Below are positions 12,136 to 34,805 of a DNA stretch of 54,373 nt, piece by piece (position 1 is the first letter of the stretch; each line of letters starts with the position of its first letter). The notes beneath the pieces were generated by a model that was not told the DNA's origin, did not search any database, and saw only the letters and a program-made list of their open reading frames with translations. A program made the translations under genes and the position numbers. Where the stretch lies: contig NZ_OZ061553.1 in NCBI RefSeq assembly GCF_964065165.1, positions 1 to 54,373 on the forward strand, written 5' to 3'. This DNA comes from Levilactobacillus yonginensis. GTDB lineage: Bacteria; Bacillota; Bacilli; Lactobacillales; Lactobacillaceae.

Positions 12136-12693
12136 TTATTTTGATCTTGTTACCTGATGATTAAAGGAAACGGAAACGACTTTTGAAATCGGATGTGGGG
12201 CAATCGTAGCCGGATTGCCAACGACGGTCAAATGGCTAGGAACATTTACCAGCACAACGGCACCGGCGCCAACCTTGCTGTATGGCCCAATCTCGATTGG
12301 CCCCAGTATCTGGGCATTGGCGCCAATGAAAGCACCCTTTCTGACGTGAGGGTGGCGCCGGCCCTTATCCGTCATACGCCGCGTGCCAAATGTCACACCA
12401 TGAAGAATGGTGACGTCGTCTTCGATGATGGCGGTTGCGCCAATAACAGTTCCCACCCCGTGATCGATGAAAACGCGTTTGCCGATGGTTGCTTCGGGGG
12501 CAATTGTAATTCCAGTAACTTTAGCGGCGTGTTGGCTAATTAAGCCAGCTATGACGAATCGTTGATGACTGGCAAAGAAGTGAGCAATCCGATACCAGAA
12601 CAGTGCCCGAACCCCGGGATACGTTAGAATCACCTGAAGCAGACTATGAGCGGCCGGATCACGCTTGAGAATGGACCTTGCTGTTTGAAACAT
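12136..12693 (-). CDS. cysE: Serine O-acetyltransferase
   Basis: The 185-residue protein makes O-acetylserine from serine and acetyl-CoA, the first step of cysteine synthesis. After a helical N-terminus (LLQVILTYPGVRALFWYRIAHFF) comes a left-handed beta helix of hexapeptide repeats (ITIAPEATIGKRVFIDHGVGTVIGAT). It contains the catalytic His region (FIDHGVGTVIG and ILHGVTFGT) and the acetyl-CoA loop (GRRHPHVRKGAFIGANAQILG). It is shorter than E. coli CysE because it lacks the long N-terminal trimerisation domain, as is usual for short-type SATs in lactic acid bacteria. It is the third gene of the operon and overlaps the lyase gene by 35 bp. Its product feeds the CBS/CysK-like enzyme encoded by the first gene. 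Confidence 0.92.
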   Translation of the reverse strand: MFQTARSILKRDPAAHSLLQVILTYPGVRALFWYRIAHFFASHQRFVIAGLISQHAAKVTGITIAPEATIGKRVFIDHGVGTVIGATAIIEDDVTILHGVTFGTRRMTDKGRRHPHVRKGAFIGANAQILGPIEIGPYSKVGAGAVVLVNVPSHLTVVGNPATIAPHPISKVVSVSFNHQVTRSK

Positions 12694-13843
12694 CTTGATG
12701 GCTCCCCTTTAGTTGATCGAATCCACGTTCCAGGTCGGCTAATAGGTCTTTTTGATCCTCAACGCCGACTGACAGGCGGATTAGTTCGTCCTTGATGCCG
12801 TTTTTAAGCCGGATGTCACGGGGGATTGAACCGTGAGTCATCAAGGCTGGAATTTCGATGAGACTTTCAAGAGCGCCCAGACTTTCGGCCAGGGTGATAA
12901 CTTGAAGTTGTTCGACAAATTGTTTGGGATCCAGACCGGCTTGTAATTCGAACGAGATCATTGCGCCAAATCCGTGCATCTGTTTCTGAGAAACTTCGTA
13001 ATCCGGATTGTTAGGATCGCCAGGATAGTAAATTTTGCTGACCAGCGGCTGATTTTTCAAATAATTGAAGATTGCTTCCGCATTGGCCAAATGAGCCCGC
13101 ATTCTAAGTGAGAGGGTCTTCATTCCCCGTTGCAATAACCAGCTCTCCTGGGGTGCCAAGATGCCGCCGATGGCATTTTGCAGGTACCCAATTTTTTCGC
13201 CAAGGGCTTGATCCTTAGTGACTACCAGGCCGGCAACCAGATCACTATGGCCACCAAGGTACTTAGAAGCACTGTGCAAAACGATATCCACGCCAAGGTC
13301 TAAGGGCCGTTGAACGTATGGCGATGAGAAAGTGTTGTCGATAATGCTTAAAATACCACGGTCCTTAGCAATTTTAGCGACGGCAGCGATATCGGTTACC
13401 CGCAGCAGTGGATTGGTCGGGGTTTCCAAATAAATGGCCTTTGTGGCGGGGGTGATGGCGGCTTTAACGGCTTGCAGGTCGCGGGTATCAACGACGGTAA
13501 ACGTCATGCCGAATCGTTTTAAAACCGCGTCAATCAAGCGGAAAGTCCCACCGTAGACGTCATTGCCAATGACGAAATGATCGCCGGCAGAAAATAGTGA
13601 GAACACCGTATCGATGGCCGCCGAACCGGAAGCAAACGCAAAGCCAGCGGTGCCGTCTTCCAAATCGGCAATTAATTTTTCAACCGCTTCCCGGGTGGGG
13701 TTACCCGAACGGGAATATTCGTATTCGTTTTCACCAATCTTCTGTTGATGAAAGGTGGATGCCATATAGATTGGGACTGATGTTGCGCCTGTGTATTTGT
13801 CTTCGCTGATGCCACCGTGAATTAATTTTGTATCAAATTCCAT
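12659..13843 (-). CDS. Cystathionine gamma/beta-lyase (PLP-dependent Cys/Met metabolism enzyme)
   Basis: The 394-residue protein is of the Cys/Met-metabolism PLP family. Visible features: the YSRSGNPTR motif near residue 55, the cofactor-stacking region (FASGSAAIDTVFSLFSAGDHF), the PLP-binding Asp (IIDNTFSSPYVQRPLDLG) and the Schiff-base Lys in DIVLHSASKYLGGHSDLVAG. With the other two genes it allows cystathionine to be split to cysteine (reverse transsulfuration). Gamma- and beta-lyases cannot be separated safely by eye. The start is chosen at 13843 (MEFDTK) because GTGAGG lies 9 nt upstream; in-frame ATGs at 13849 and 13858 are too close to it. This CBS-lyase-CysE order is a known, horizontally transferred cluster in lactobacilli and Streptococcus thermophilus. 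Confidence 0.88.
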   Translation of the reverse strand: MEFDTKLIHGGISEDKYTGATSVPIYMASTFHQQKIGENEYEYSRSGNPTREAVEKLIADLEDGTAGFAFASGSAAIDTVFSLFSAGDHFVIGNDVYGGTFRLIDAVLKRFGMTFTVVDTRDLQAVKAAITPATKAIYLETPTNPLLRVTDIAAVAKIAKDRGILSIIDNTFSSPYVQRPLDLGVDIVLHSASKYLGGHSDLVAGLVVTKDQALGEKIGYLQNAIGGILAPQESWLLQRGMKTLSLRMRAHLANAEAIFNYLKNQPLVSKIYYPGDPNNPDYEVSQKQMHGFGAMISFELQAGLDPKQFVEQLQVITLAESLGALESLIEIPALMTHGSIPRDIRLKNGIKDELIRLSVGVEDQKDLLADLERGFDQLKGSHQDVSNSKVHSQA

Positions 13844-13884
13844 AATCATTGACCTCACTTTTTTAGTTGTTAGATTTAAGTTGA

Positions 13885-14796
13885 TTAGTTGTAAATGTTT
13901 TCACTCATGTAACGCTCGCTGCTGTCTGGAAAAACCGTGACGATTGAACTGTTTTCTGGCAATTCATTGGCTACTTTAAGACTAGCTGCTAACGCGGCCC
14001 CGCTGGAACTGCCAATGAAGAGCCCTTGTGTTTTGGCCATTTGTTTAACCTGATCAAACGCGTCGTTGTCAGAAATGGTGAGGGTTTCATCAATTTGGAC
14101 GTCTTTGAAGAAGGGCGGAATAAATTCGACACCAATCCCTTCCGTTTTGTGGGGATGAGCCGGGCCACCATTTAGAATGGAGCCTTCGGGTTCAACGACG
14201 ACGGTCCGGGTTGCTGAATTCTGTTCTTTCAGATATCGGGCGATGCCGGCAAATGTCCCGCCACTGCCCGCGCCAGCAACGAACGCGTTAATTTGAGCAG
14301 GGACGTCTGCTACTAACTCCGGCGCCAAGGTGTGGTAATAAGTCGCCGGATTAGCCGGATTTTCAAACTGCATCGGCACAAAACTGTTTGGGGTCTTCGC
14401 TGCCAACTCGCGCGCTTTTTGGATGGCGCCTTTGATTCCTTGGTCGCTCGGCGTGTTGATGAGAGTCGCCCCGAGAGCCTTCATCAGCTGTTGTTTTTCA
14501 AAACTAAACTTTTCAGGGACGACGAGGATAGTTGGCAAGCGGTGCTGTTGGGCGGCCAGGGCCACCCCAATGCCGGTATTGCCGGCGGTGGGTTCAATAA
14601 TGGTGGTTTTTCCTTCAGTCACTTTACCGTGGTCGATGGCGTCTTGAATCATGTACTGACCCAAGCGGTCCTTGATGCTGCCGCCGGGATTAAACATTTC
14701 AAGTTTGGCGTAAATATGACTGTGGTGAGGAACGTTAATTTGTAGGTCGATCATCGGGGTATGGCCGATGAGTTGGGAAACGGATTGAATAAGCAT
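13885..14796 (-). CDS. Cysteine synthase / cystathionine beta-synthase-like PLP enzyme
   Basis: The 303-residue fold-type II PLP enzyme carries the catalytic lysine in [15 protein letters not shown] (about residue 42), the substrate loop [14 protein letters not shown] (about 70-83), the phosphate-binding [10 protein letters not shown] (about 176-185) and a C-terminal SSSGAALAA serine loop. It forms cysteine from O-acetylserine and sulfide, or cystathionine from serine (or O-acetylserine) and homocysteine. Neighbouring lyase and CysE genes favour the transsulfuration role. It has no heme or CBS regulatory domain. It is the first gene of the operon, with AGAAAGGATC upstream of its ATG, and is preceded by the leader peptide and attenuator at 14901-15080. 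Confidence 0.9.
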
Positions 14797-14900
14797 GGTA
14801 AGATCCTTTCTGAATAGTTGTTTTAACTGTTAGACTGCGATTCAGGAAAGATGATCTTTGGCGATGTTAAATGGCCGGTTGGCTGCAGTGAATAGAAAAA

Positions 14901-14938
14901 GGGCGCGAAACTCTGAAAAATCAGAATTCTCGCGCCCT
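14901..14938 (-). terminator. Attenuator terminator in the cysteine-operon leader
   Basis: On the minus strand GGGCGCGA pairs with TCGCGCCC, with a further AATTCTGA/TCAGAGTT inner stem, followed by a run of five T. It lies about 65 nt after the leader-peptide stop and about 100 nt before the cysK-like start codon, where it would block the operon unless read through. Confidence 0.9.
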
Positions 14939-15005
14939 TAGTTCAATTCCAGCCAAGTGGACATTGAACTTCTTTAAGGTCATTATTCCTCAAAAAATGT
15001 CAATG

Positions 15006-15080
15006 CTAACAGGCCGAACATCGCCAAAAACGCGTTGTTCGACAGCAACAATTAATCGCACTAAACATTGATTGAGTCAT
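15006..15080 (-). CDS. Cys-rich leader peptide (24 aa)
   Basis: The peptide begins MTQSMFSAINCCCRTTRFW and ends RCSAC: five cysteines in 24 residues, three of them consecutive (codons 11-13), and the last codon before the stop is also Cys. It has an excellent ribosome binding site (GGAGG at 15088-15092, 7-nt spacer), so it should be translated well. Position, length and composition are those of amino-acid leader peptides such as those of trp, his or leu operons, here for cysteine and directly upstream of cysteine-synthesis genes. Ribosomes starved of Cys-tRNA would stall at the CCC run and change folding of the leader RNA. Too short for most gene callers. Confidence 0.85.
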   Translation of the reverse strand: MTQSMFSAINCCCRTTRFWRCSAC

Positions 15081-15111
15081 AGTGACACCTCCGAAATTTT
15101 TTGTTGCCATA

Positions 15112-15140
15112 AATATACATAATCCCAGTGGAAGTGTCAA
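15112..15140 (-). promoter_or_regulatory. Promoter of the cysteine operon
   Basis: On the minus strand TTGACA (15140-15135), a 17-nt spacer and TATATT (15117-15112) form a near-consensus sigma-A promoter. Transcription would begin at about 15105, just upstream of the leader-peptide ribosome binding site. Confidence 0.85.
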
Positions 15141-15200: not shown

Positions 15201-15632
15201 CTACTTAAGTAAGATGCAAATTGAGGCAATGTAGACCGTAGCCAGATAAACATGAGCGAGCTTATCATAACGCGTTGCAATCCTACGAAAGTTCTTCAAC
15301 TGATTGAAGAAGTTCTCAATCAAATGGCGCTCACAATAAACGTGGTAATCACAGGTCCACTTGTCTTTGGTATTTTCCTTTGGCGGAATGGTATAGACGC
15401 CTGCTTTATCTTCAATATACTGGCGAAGTTTCGCGGTGCTATAGGCTTTATCCGCGATAATATTTGATTGAGAAATATCGAAGCCTTCCAGCAACTCACT
15501 GGCAACTTGGCTATCATGTACTTGACCACCTGTTAGGCGAAAACCCAAGGGATTCCCTAATCCGTCAACGAGTGCGTGAATCTTGGTCGTTCGGCCACCT
15601 CGACTTAGTCCAATAGCTTGATTTTCGACCAT
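15201..15632 (-). CDS. IS5-family transposase, second reading frame (OrfB)
   Basis: The protein is identical to the one at 6778-7209: catalytic Asp in IIADKAYST and catalytic Glu in CERHLIENFFNQLKNF. It is made as a frameshift fusion with the 15565-15975 frame through an A7 run. With its inverted twin it bounds a 9.7-kb segment holding the amino-acid permease and cysteine operon, which could in principle move or invert as a unit. Confidence 0.85.
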   Translation of the reverse strand: MVENQAIGLSRGGRTTKIHALVDGLGNPLGFRLTGGQVHDSQVASELLEGFDISQSNIIADKAYSTAKLRQYIEDKAGVYTIPPKENTKDKWTCDYHVYCERHLIENFFNQLKNFRRIATRYDKLAHVYLATVYIASICILLK

Positions 15633-15975
15633 ACATTCGGCGTTTTTTTGCCCCAGTGGCCTTTTGATGCGCTCGAACGATCGTTGAATCTAAGCTCAAG
15701 TTTTCCATGTCGGGATCGTCAATCAATTCGAGAAAAACCTGTTCGAACAAGCCTGAACTTACCCAGGCTCGGAAGCGACTATACACCGTTTTCCAAGAGC
15801 CATAGCGTTCAGGTAGATCACGCCAAGGAGCCCCGCTGCGCATGAGCCAGAGGATAGCGTTGAGGGCGGTACGGTTGTCTAGGCTTGATGGACGGCCAGT
15901 CCGGTATGGCGGGAAGTATCCTTTGATTCGGTCCCACTGAGCATCTTCCAGTTCGTATCGTTTAGGTGTTGTCAT
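15565..15975 (-). CDS. IS5-family transposase, first reading frame (OrfA)
   Basis: The 136-residue protein is identical to the one at 6435-6845, with the WLMRSGAPWRDLPERYG IS5 signature and the first catalytic Asp in LSLDSTIVRAH. Perfect protein identity between the copies points to recent duplication or gene conversion. Confidence 0.85.
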   Translation of the reverse strand: MTTPKRYELEDAQWDRIKGYFPPYRTGRPSSLDNRTALNAILWLMRSGAPWRDLPERYGSWKTVYSRFRAWVSSGLFEQVFLELIDDPDMENLSLDSTIVRAHQKATGAKKRRMYGRKSSYWTKSRWPNDQDSRTR

Positions 15976-21521: not shown

Positions 21522-21697
21522 ATTAAGTGGGTCCGTTGCCAGACATAAACATATTGGGAAACTATATACAAATACGGCGAAGTACGAAAAACGCTGAAAA
21601 AGAATTAGTTGAACCTATTTTTGAAAAATACAAAGATAAATAATAAGCTGAAAATGCCTTGCTACCCAATTTTTCATAGTCATGCTATAATGAAAAA

Positions 21698-21815
21698 GAA
21701 AAAGGAAGTCCCACGTGAACAGGACTTCCCGTGTAGAGCCGTTAAAGACGGTGGCAGATATTAAAACAACACTAGTTCGCCCCATAACCGGTCAAAGTTA
21801 TGTGGGGCGGCTTTT
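21698..21815 (+). ncRNA. Antisense RNA of type I toxin-antitoxin module 1
   Basis: The extended -10 box TGCTATAAT (to 21691) starts a plus-strand transcript. It has a GGAAGTCC/GGACTTCC hairpin, an AGCCGT/ACGGT hairpin and a perfect terminator (CGCCCCATAAC with GTTATGTGGGGCG, then TTTTT, 21779-21815). It runs toward and overlaps the 3' end of the convergent toxin gene, as in TxpA/RatA and BsrG/SR4 systems. The homologous RNA at 25575-25699 has compensating base changes in the first hairpin. Confidence 0.7.
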
Positions 21816-25409: not shown

Positions 25410-25574
25410 CTTCCAAACACTACATATATTTTTTATTACATATTATACCACTATATATGGTTCTTAGGCCGTTGCTCCTACATATTTTCAAGAACGAACA
25501 ATAGTTTCTCTAGCCTTTGAGAAACTACACTTAAAATAGTCGCAAGTCCGTTATAGCCATGCTATAATGTAAAC

Positions 25575-25699
25575 AGAAAAAGGAAGCCCCGCTAGAACAG
25601 GGCTTCCCATGTAGAGCCGTTTAAGACGGTGGCAAAGTTTAATAATAGATTAAATAATCCGTTAGCCCTGCCAAAAGCTAAGACGGATTATTTTTTTTG
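25575..25699 (+). ncRNA. Antisense RNA of type I toxin-antitoxin module 2
   Basis: The extended -10 box TGCTATAAT (to 25568) precedes hairpins GGAAGCCC/GGGCTTCC and AGCCGT/ACGGT. A terminator built from AATAATCCGT and ACGGATTATT with a following T run overlaps the end of the toxin gene. The layout and sequence are those of module 1 (21698-21815). Confidence 0.7.
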
Positions 25700-25792
25700 C
25701 TGACTTTTGATCAGCTCAACAATTAATGCAATCAAGGCCACGATAAATGTACCGAAAGCTAGCATTAATTGTAAAGCGTCCGAAACGGACAC
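25688..25792 (-). CDS. Type I toxin, holin-like TxpA/BsrG-type peptide 2
   Basis: The 34-residue peptide begins MSVSDALQLMLAFGTFIVAL and ends ELIKSQQKK, with one membrane helix and a basic tail. Start GTG at 25792 with AAGGAG 8 nt upstream. A TATAAT promoter lies on the minus strand at 25902-25897 in the same relative place as in module 1. The N-terminal MSV and the LMLxFGTFxxAL core are shared with the 21816-21905 peptide. It should be a membrane toxin repressed by the convergent RNA at 25575-25699. Confidence 0.75.
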   Translation of the reverse strand: MSVSDALQLMLAFGTFIVALIALIVELIKSQQKK

Positions 25793-26070
25793 TTAGGCTA
25801 CTCCTTTCGTTAGGATTTATGGGCTTTAAAGGTTTAACACCATAAGCACCGCCTCCGATCGGAAATAGCCACCGCCTTAACTTCTCTACTTGATTCATTA
25901 TACAGAGATATAATTCTTTTAGAAACATATTTTTAAATCAGTAGTGTACTTCATTCTAACCTGGATTAGTGTATTAACGTAAGTCATCTTAGTAAGAACA
26001 TTGAGCATAAAAATACGGTAATTGATTCATTTTATCAGAGTGCTTGCTTATATCTATAGGAGGTTCTATT

Positions 26071-34427: not shown

Positions 34428-34500
34428 GCGGAATGAGAGTATATCGTGCATAGACAGCAAAAGAGCCACTACCCGGGCATGGGTAGTGGCTCTTTTTTTC
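34428..34500 (+). ncRNA. Antisense RNA (RNA II) of an Fst/Ldr-type par locus
   Basis: TTGCTC (34393-34398), a 17-nt spacer and TATAAT (34416-34421) give a strong promoter. The short transcript begins with AATGAGAGTATATC (34432-34445), which is repeated exactly at 34626-34639 inside the toxin gene on the opposite strand, so the RNA is complementary to the toxin mRNA there. It ends at the terminator at 34468-34499. This is the RNA I/RNA II layout of pAD1 par. Confidence 0.8.
34468..34499. terminator. Shared bidirectional terminator of the Fst-like locus
   Basis: AGAGCCACTACCC and GGGTAGTGGCTCT form a perfect stem with A-rich and T-rich flanks, placed between the convergent toxin and antisense RNA genes. 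Confidence 0.85.
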
Positions 34501-34540
34501 GCTGCGCGGAATTCAGCGTGTGAGTTAGAATGACAACTTG

Positions 34541-34648
34541 CTAGTGATTGTTGTCTTTGTCGCTCTTATCTAACCAGTAAGAGAATAGTTTATTAACTAT
34601 ACCGACTAGAATCGGTGCAACAATCAATGAGAGTATATCATGTAACAT
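34541..34648 (-). CDS. Fst/Ldr-family type I toxin
   Basis: The 35-residue peptide begins MLHDILSLIVAPILVGIVNK and ends in SYWLDKSDKDNNH. The pattern VAPIxVG, a membrane helix and a WLD-charged tail matches Fst of pAD1 (VIAPIFVGLVLEMISRVLDEED). GGGGGC upstream of the ATG is held in a GCCCC-gaaa-GGGGGC hairpin that would hide the ribosome binding site, as in fst mRNA. A TGCTATAAT promoter lies at about 34694-34686 on the minus strand. The toxin damages the membrane in cells that lose the plasmid and its antisense RNA. Too short for standard callers. Confidence 0.88.
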   Translation of the reverse strand: MLHDILSLIVAPILVGIVNKLFSYWLDKSDKDNNH

Positions 34649-34805
34649 AGACAACGCCCCCTTTCGGGGCAAGTTGCCATTCATGATTATAGCATTTCCT
34701 CTTTAGTTCGGTCTAAGTAATTTTGAACAGTGTTTTTTTCTTGTCCTCGCCATTCTCTTTGCTAAAATAAAACTAAAAATAACTTTATTTGCGGAGGTTT
34801 TAGCT

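Follow-up and report, generated by a model that had tools for sequence, protein, structure and literature searches.

A predicted ribosome-mediated cysteine attenuator upstream of the cysK2-ctl-cysE operon of Levilactobacillus yonginensis and its counterparts in Lactobacillales

The leader of the cysK2-ctl-cysE operon of Levilactobacillus yonginensis is predicted to be a ribosome-mediated transcription attenuator of the trp/his type that senses charged tRNA-Cys, a reading to which we assign a probability of roughly 0.93. The case is built from the sequence parts of the leader, their conservation, the covariation of its competing helices, and the published behavior of a homologous operon, which is induced without cysteine and shows high read coverage of its 5'-UTR. 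A sequence-only reading of this DNA had proposed a ribosome-mediated cysteine attenuator in place of the T-box usual for amino-acid operons of Firmicutes; conserved Cys codons, a conserved terminator and covariation now support it. The mechanism of attenuation is of the textbook kind; what is new is the leader family. Coordinates refer to the window, that is, the whole 54,373-nucleotide stretch of DNA that was analyzed; all features of the leader and operon lie on its minus strand.

The leader, its competing hairpins and the predicted switch

The promoter (15112-15140) is composed of TTGACA (15140-15135), a 17 bp spacer and TATATT (15117-15112) and matches the consensus at 11 of 12 bases, in agreement with its original description as near-consensus; both hexamers are kept in two homologues (L003 and L004), and the -10 hexamer differs by one base in a third (L005). 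A Shine-Dalgarno sequence, GGAGG (15088-15092), is located 7 nt 5' of the ATG (15080) of a leader ORF of 24 codons plus TAG, MTQSMFSAINCCCRTTRFWRCSAC (15006-15080); Cys-rich ORFs led by a Shine-Dalgarno sequence are also found in homologues. The well-initiated 24-codon peptide with Cys-Cys-Cys at codons 11-13 and Cys as its last codon had been correctly recognized at the outset, although Cys codon 21 had been left out (the complete list is 11, 12, 13, 21 and 24). Codons 11-13 (UGU UGC UGU, 15042-15050) are assigned as the sensor on the basis of the sequence and of the homologues. An intrinsic terminator and then, as first read, a cysteine-synthesis operon follow. Its first gene encodes a cysK2/CBS-type PLP enzyme (PALP, 13885-14796; identified by Pfam, with the same cluster annotated in homologues), the second, ctl, a cystathionine beta/gamma-lyase (Cys_Met_Meta_PP, 12659-13858; Pfam), and the third, cysE, a serine O-acetyltransferase of the hexapeptide type (12136-12693; Pfam and homologue annotation).

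On its upstream side the promoter is adjoined by transposase-like frames (15201-15975), which we take to be IS5-like. Other copies of the cysK-ctl-cysE cluster have IS30 or IS3 transposases upstream, a variety that fits the title of PMC6200037, 'Highly Mobile cysK-ctl-cysE Gene Cluster'.

Three structures compete within the leader. Hairpin A (15013-15043, segments 1:2), supported by folding, pairing and permutation, is an 11 bp sequestrator inside the leader ORF that masks the antiterminator strand; its arms are GUCGAACA/UGUUCGGC plus CGC/GCG, and its energy is -15.8 kcal/mol (z -3.5, folded as 15012-15043). The masked strand, segment 2, CGCGUUUUUGG (15024-15034), also lies in the ORF, at codons 16-19 and directly 3' of the Cys codons. 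It pairs (15034-15024 with 14941-14931) with segment 3, CUAAGGGCGCG (14931-14941), which is the 5' arm of the terminator and is common to terminator and antiterminator, as folding and covariation indicate. The antiterminator hairpin (14931-15034) is formed by this base, 15034-15024:14941-14931, and an apical helix, 15005-14988:14979-14962, with an energy of -42.9 kcal/mol (z -6.6, folded as 14931-15036) or of -43.5 kcal/mol in a separate comparison of states. The intrinsic terminator with its U tract (14896-14939, stem 14939-14899), likewise supported by folding and covariation, has an energy of -28 kcal/mol (z -7.0, folded as 14899-14941).

The leader thus contains the parts by which an attenuator is recognized: a short ORF, led by a Shine-Dalgarno sequence, with sensor codons for the amino acid that the operon makes; an intrinsic terminator between that ORF and the first gene; an antiterminator that, by pairing and by covariation, is mutually exclusive with the terminator; and a sequestering hairpin, of which at least four expected pairs form in 107 of 109 leaders. 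The sequence-only reading had seen something other than the textbook trp layout, a view that is not borne out, because the antiterminator overlaps the terminator and hairpin A hides its strand. The two short pairings that it had put forward as a switch do both exist. One (15005-15000:14967-14962) belongs to the apex of the antiterminator, the only portion of that hairpin which the reading had found; the other (14970-14963:14947-14940) is held in a hairpin, H2 (14940-14970), predicted in the terminator state and in the minimum free energy (MFE) structure of the free leader. As the whole of the switch they are rejected.

The predicted sequence of events presumes that the ORF is translated, that ribosomes stall at its Cys codons, that the timing is co-transcriptional and that tRNA charging is the signal. 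Transcription would start just downstream of 15112 and a ribosome would begin the leader ORF. With enough cysteine, it would pass codons 11-13, reach the stop codon and leave; hairpin A (15043-15013) would then close over the antiterminator strand, the terminator (14939-14899) would fold, and transcription would stop. With Cys-tRNA in short supply, the ribosome would stall with codon 11 or codon 12 in the A site. A stalled ribosome covers about 12-13 nt downstream in the standard geometry; here it would mask hairpin A on its 5' side, the footprint of a stall at codon 11 ending immediately before 15034. The strand from 15034, being free, would pair with the terminator 5' arm (14941-14931) before the 3' arm has been made, and RNA polymerase would read through into cysK2-ctl-cysE.

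Equilibrium folding places a constraint on this scheme. The state that combines hairpin A, the apical helix and the terminator has a predicted energy of -59.8 kcal/mol, which becomes -44.0 without hairpin A, next to -43.5 for the antiterminator. The MFE structure of the free window leader (-72.9) comprises hairpin A, the hairpin 14970-14940 and the terminator, which also dominates the MFE structure of the masked leader (-61.4). Among all 109 leaders, the terminator keeps at least five expected pairs in 104 when free, in 94 when the first Cys codon is masked and in 101 when the second is masked. Masking at the first codon brings a gain of at least two antiterminator pairs in 40/109 leaders and an equivalent loss in none; at the second codon there are 31 such gains and 34 losses. 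Masking barely alters the predicted antiterminator pairing of the window leader (9.6 to 9.9 pairs, with the 3' arm still to be transcribed). Since the terminator dominates at equilibrium even when the leader is masked, the antiterminator would have to prevail through kinetics, by the sequence in which the helices form as the RNA is made.

Conservation, covariation and competing explanations

The Cys codons and the terminator are conserved in homologous clusters; a lack of such conservation was one of the findings by which the sequence-only reading would, on its own terms, have been refuted. Nucleotide homologues are found in 32 Lacticaseibacillus plasmid records, 14 of which match the full 381-base query at about 99% (99.0-99.5) and 18 of which align over 64% of its length with an identity of 88.5-88.9%. 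Two of these 88% records were opened; in both, the leader is followed by the three genes of the operon, and Cys codons, antiterminator strand and terminator are all kept. A DNA search across the genus detected no copy beyond the window (1/35 genomes). The plasmid setting originally ascribed to the leader holds for these homologues but is not general: many others are carried by contigs that range in length from hundreds of kb to several Mb.

A protein-guided search finds a CBS match (E 1e-40) in 165/397 Lactobacillaceae genomes, a count that includes paralogues of ~40% identity; matches of at least 60% identity were taken further, leaving out these paralogues and three partial matches lacking the N-terminus (G385, G279, G372:C441). 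With the leader defined as an ORF led by a Shine-Dalgarno sequence and containing at least three Cys codons upstream of the CBS gene, it is present in 30/30 loci of a first set (the window's own copy included), in 39/41 named Lactobacillales loci, many of them from the same genomes as the first 30, as against 1/38 loci of other Bacilli, and in 70/77 further loci drawn from genomes. Cys-rich leaders of this kind, which the sequence-only reading had suggested looking for before CBS-lyase-CysE clusters, are thus found upstream of CBS genes in other lactobacilli. The two misses among the named loci (L066, L076) have two-Cys leaders, and five of the seven among the 77 have a Cys-Cys ORF that the filter missed, the remaining two being an apparent ORF end only (L176) and a locus with only 115 nt upstream (L188). 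The sole positive among other Bacilli (L091) is regarded as a chance ORF and was left out of the counts that followed. When the search is limited to 300 nt and Cys-Cys is required, 31/41 named loci and 1/38 of other Bacilli remain; a Shine-Dalgarno-led ORF of 8-60 codons with Cys-Cys and at least three Cys occurs in 86/107 real upstream regions and in 5/1070 dinucleotide-shuffled 300-nt regions. The genera with leaders include Lentilactobacillus, Secundilactobacillus, Weissella, Ligilactobacillus, Lactiplantibacillus, Tetragenococcus, Paucilactobacillus, Loigolactobacillus, Oenococcus, Companilactobacillus and Limosilactobacillus. Listeria grayi (L082), tallied separately, has a six-Cys leader, MKNNTTLATKSCCLTRAYCCCAICIV, and a terminator upstream of CBS; no convincing antiterminator pairing was found in it.

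The pairings themselves were examined in 109 leaders (110 distinct ones less L091), by alignment-free tests that cover the more divergent leaders and in two alignments chosen because they are alignable: A4 (26 leaders) and A5 (22 leaders of the second main group). When terminators are permuted among 19 clusters, antiterminator-terminator complementarity averages 16.96 with the leader's own partner (minimum 15.84) and 12.98 with permuted partners (maximum 15.63; 2000 draws); the own terminator beats the cross partner in 17/19 clusters (Wilcoxon p 0.0005). The pairing was not seen in the Listeria grayi and L160 clusters. Swapping the arms of hairpin A in the same permutation test gives 15.43 (minimum 14.95) versus 11.06 (maximum 13.53). 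In A4, hairpin A is paired in 94.8% of cells, as against at most 47.6% in slid controls, and the antiterminator base in 88.8% (at most 60.7% slid), with a covariation of 0.407 (at most 0.192 slid); for both helices, the paired percentage and the covariation were reached in 0/500 shuffles. Hairpin A pairs changed on both sides do not rise above the shuffles (4 versus 3.4; 230/500 as high). The middle and apex of the A4 antiterminator are less conserved (66.9% versus up to 53.1% slid). In A5, a 13-bp base is 93.7% paired and the whole antiterminator structure 80.6% (at most 42.8% slid). The terminator covaries as expected, and the sequestrator and antiterminator helices covary between clades. 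In the weaker test of shuffling single leaders, 61 of the 109 reach 5% or less. There is also an exception among near relatives of the window. The near-identical leaders of L006 and of L008, which is of the L. casei plasmid type, read CAT or CTT where codon 17 is otherwise CGT, and the resulting mismatch at the base of the antiterminator is not compensated.

The position and the manner of the changes bear on two other explanations. In 94/109 leaders, the start of the best 9-nt complement lies 12-16 nt past that of the Cys run. Arg codons (CGU/CGC) in the leader become His codons (CAU/CAC) as GCG becomes GUG in the terminator, and a Tetragenococcus leader (L060) has a 1-nt gap after its Cys codons, and with it another C-terminus, and largely keeps the antiterminator complement. 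Because the Arg/His swaps are compensated and the pairing largely outlasts a break in frame, the sequences argue for selection on RNA, not peptide, in the second half of the leader. It could instead be supposed that the palindrome GGGCGCGA..TCGCGCCC is the DNA operator of a transcription factor and the Cys-rich ORF incidental, as might be drawn from what PMC6004538 reports of Liu et al. But the palindrome runs into the U tract, other clades have different sequences in its place, the palindrome's 5' arm changes along with the strand in the leader ORF (partners GCGUCUU, GCAUCUU and UGUGCCCU), and an operator gives no reason for a Cys run 12-16 nt upstream of the antiterminator strand; we regard it as very improbable. 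Arrest by the nascent peptide, with CCCRTTRFWRCSAC itself stalling the ribosome on a cysteine- or thiol-linked signal rather than on uncharged tRNA-Cys, would fit the strong conservation of the C-terminal part among window-type, Lentilactobacillus and Secundilactobacillus leaders. However, the C-terminus varies by clade (RCSAC, GSRLMRPT, STTRFRCCTAC, SSRHLAKK), only the Cys run being common to all, and it goes out of register in L060 and changes with the compensated Arg/His swaps while the RNA pairing is kept. A peptide-level function of the leader is rejected on these grounds, and arrest of this kind is given scant credence.

A third alternative makes the short ORF a chance feature of a cryptic tRNA- or metabolite-binding riboswitch, that is, a divergent T-box or an aptamer. 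The sequence-only reading had seen no T-box, and Rfam covariance searches at curated and relaxed thresholds agree: the window leader matches no family at its curated score, and relaxing the search as far as E 10 brings up five eukaryotic miRNA/snoRNA families and no others, all of them below threshold and chance matches. As a positive control, 26 T-box matches are found elsewhere in the window's genome. Only five of these exceed the Rfam curated cut-off, and a search by cut-off could accordingly miss one; the homologous operon of L. paracasei FAM18149, moreover, has high 5'-UTR coverage as T-boxes do (PMC6004538, in part). Against this, a search of 20 related upstream regions at E 0.1 yields miRNA families and one match to the rliH sRNA (22.9 bits, below its cut-off of 100) but neither a T-box nor a riboswitch, and 40 loci, a good part of them from distant Bacilli, contain neither in the coding-strand leader at curated cut-offs. 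On these searches a T-box or other Rfam element is rejected, and the chance of a cryptic riboswitch appears very small.

Elsewhere in the window, there are two matches to the RatA-family antitoxin RNA (25565-25654 and 21688-21776), which suggest type I toxin-antitoxin modules, and matches on the minus strand to the Enterococcus sRNA RefB11 and the Listeria sRNA rli28 (34495-34678 and 25726-25911).

Lineage-specific additions and similar leaders ahead of other sulfur genes

Past the terminator, the segment AACATCGCCAAA (14857-14868) is a perfect 12-bp complement of leader positions 15028-15017. The sequence-only reading had counted this link as part of the switch, and the complementarity is real: taken as a 15-nt run with G-U pairs, it is reached in 0/200 shuffles (longest shuffled run, 14). 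It was seen only in the window's own lineage (L006, L007, L008), the segment being deleted in the two aligned 88% plasmid homologues and the link absent from L009, L010 and L011; L030 has a weaker 12-nt run that 11/200 shuffles reach. Being lineage-specific, the link cannot be the core of the switch and is rejected as such. In readthrough RNA the segment (14868-14857) could capture the antiterminator strand again. Cys codons beyond the sensor run, here 21 (15020-15018) and 24 (15011-15009), recur in many leaders (RCSAC, RCLAC, CCTAC). Stalling there would cover the antiterminator strand, so that a second tier of control is possible.

Covariance models derived from A4 and A5 were searched over Lactobacillaceae, the first also order-wide; they match 63 and 46 of 301 Lactobacillaceae genomes, respectively. 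Order-wide, A4 matches 13/295 genomes: six Lactobacillaceae, four of one genus of another family (g83) and three weakly. A g83 genome (L249) has a Tetragenococcus-like leader and a CBS operon; one weak match that was fetched (L248) is a false positive. The R1 model, searched over the genus, matches the window at E 1e-41 and otherwise only weakly, in six other genomes; in the window's own genome, R1 matches this leader in full and has one weak, terminator-only match, and R2 has none.

The 36 loci taken from model matches elsewhere are a selection, from which weak or overlapping matches (e.g., G144, G237, G521, G540) were left out. By reading, 28 of them have a leader with a Cys run or C-x-C before a sulfur or transport gene: cystathionine lyase, amino-acid ABC transporter operons, an oligopeptide-binding protein, and an HTS-family gene followed by CysK or an NlpA lipoprotein. 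The genes are identified by Pfam matches for 13 of the 28 and named by resemblance for the others, and in L232 and L237 the named gene is far from the leader. The other eight are the CBS operon of L249, two one-Cys leaders (L225, L228) and five false positives (L224, L226, L227, L229, L248). The one-Cys leaders come from one genus, match the model weakly and precede an amino-acid ABC transporter; perhaps they are decayed or differently tuned attenuators. One leader (L246) pairs through a different sequence, UGUGCCCU with AGGGCACA. In a shuffle test with 28 such leaders scored, nine exceed 5% and seven exceed 10% (L214, L215, L219, L222, L239, L247, L249), failures that are due in part to an off automatic choice of terminator; L220 was missed by the start-codon search.

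Taken together, these leaders allow a wider reading that we put forward only tentatively, as rather less probable than not: a cysteine regulon that extends across Lactobacillales and is governed by one rapidly drifting family of leader attenuators, with a second tier of control added. Its targets would be the CBS-CGL-CysE operons, stand-alone cystathionine lyases, cystine-type ABC transporters, HTS-CysK and the peptide-binding protein, and it would do for cysteine what T-boxes do for methionine. In the second tier, Cys 21 and 24 would keep a starved ribosome positioned on top of the antiterminator strand, and the post-terminator segment of the window's lineage would recapture that strand.

Published expression and comparison with known systems

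PMC6004538 reports from RNA-seq that in L. paracasei FAM18149 cysK2-ctl1-cysE2 is expressed more strongly, by 2.9-3.2 log2 units, in medium deficient in cysteine than in medium deficient in methionine, that its 5'-UTR has high read coverage, that a rho-independent terminator was predicted and no T-box or S-box found, and that its regulation was 'yet to be discovered' as of 2018. The FAM18149 plasmid carries the 88% homologue L003, and the induction data are those of this homologue, not of the window's plasmid. The attenuator proposed here accounts for the reported induction without cysteine, the covered 5'-UTR, the terminator and the missing T-box. The methionine-to-cysteine operon is studied in cheese lactobacilli, and the leader specifies the exact bases to mutate. 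If the reading is true, cysteine is sensed in some Firmicutes by translation as well as by T-boxes, which makes a case for studying how such systems replace each other. The compensated Arg/His swaps show clearly how constraint on an RNA can prevail over the sequence of the peptide that it encodes. Among the papers listed in a literature search by title and start of abstract, mostly outside subscription journals, none describes a cysteine leader peptide in lactobacilli, and this leader family, its place in Firmicutes and its regulon were likewise not seen there.

The leader-peptide attenuators of the trp and his operons of Enterobacteria are the textbook case. The leader described here has in common with them a short Shine-Dalgarno-led ORF bearing its sensor codons in tandem, a hairpin that covers the antiterminator strand, a terminator 5' arm that the antiterminator also uses, and an intrinsic terminator followed by a biosynthetic operon. 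It differs in its amino acid, cysteine, in its host, a Gram-positive lactic acid bacterium, and in the place of the antiterminator strand, which is within the reading frame and directly after the sensor codons. Polycysteine attenuators, with a poly-Cys leader before cysteine genes, also occur in mycobacteria. The Cys-run leaders of Actinobacteria (cys operons, B. longum cbs), likened here by description only, similarly place a poly-Cys peptide before cysteine genes, but their Cys codons are near the stop and, in the part of PMC1262725 seen, no terminator was found and Rho was suggested, whereas the present leader has an intrinsic terminator and an antiterminator that covary. Also by description only, as given in part of PMC8632094, uORFC-8-2 before cysS of Rhodobacterales has tandem Cys codons in an upstream ORF, an intrinsic terminator and a proposed ribosome-mediated attenuation, but belongs to Alphaproteobacteria and precedes a tRNA synthetase gene. 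Within Firmicutes, leader-peptide attenuation of other amino acids and genes is represented by the leucine attenuator of S. aureus ilv-leu (PMC5794164) and the histidine leaders of Bacillus hisS*/hisZ (PMC2965389), both likened by description from sources seen in part. A cysteine-specific T-box precedes glnP2 on a plasmid of L. paracasei FAM18149, the strain of L003 (PMC6004538): its operon, like that of the L003 homologue, is induced when cysteine is short, but the T-box binds uncharged tRNA directly, without translation, whereas the window leader, which has no T-box match, would sense the same shortage through a ribosome stalled at its Cys codons.
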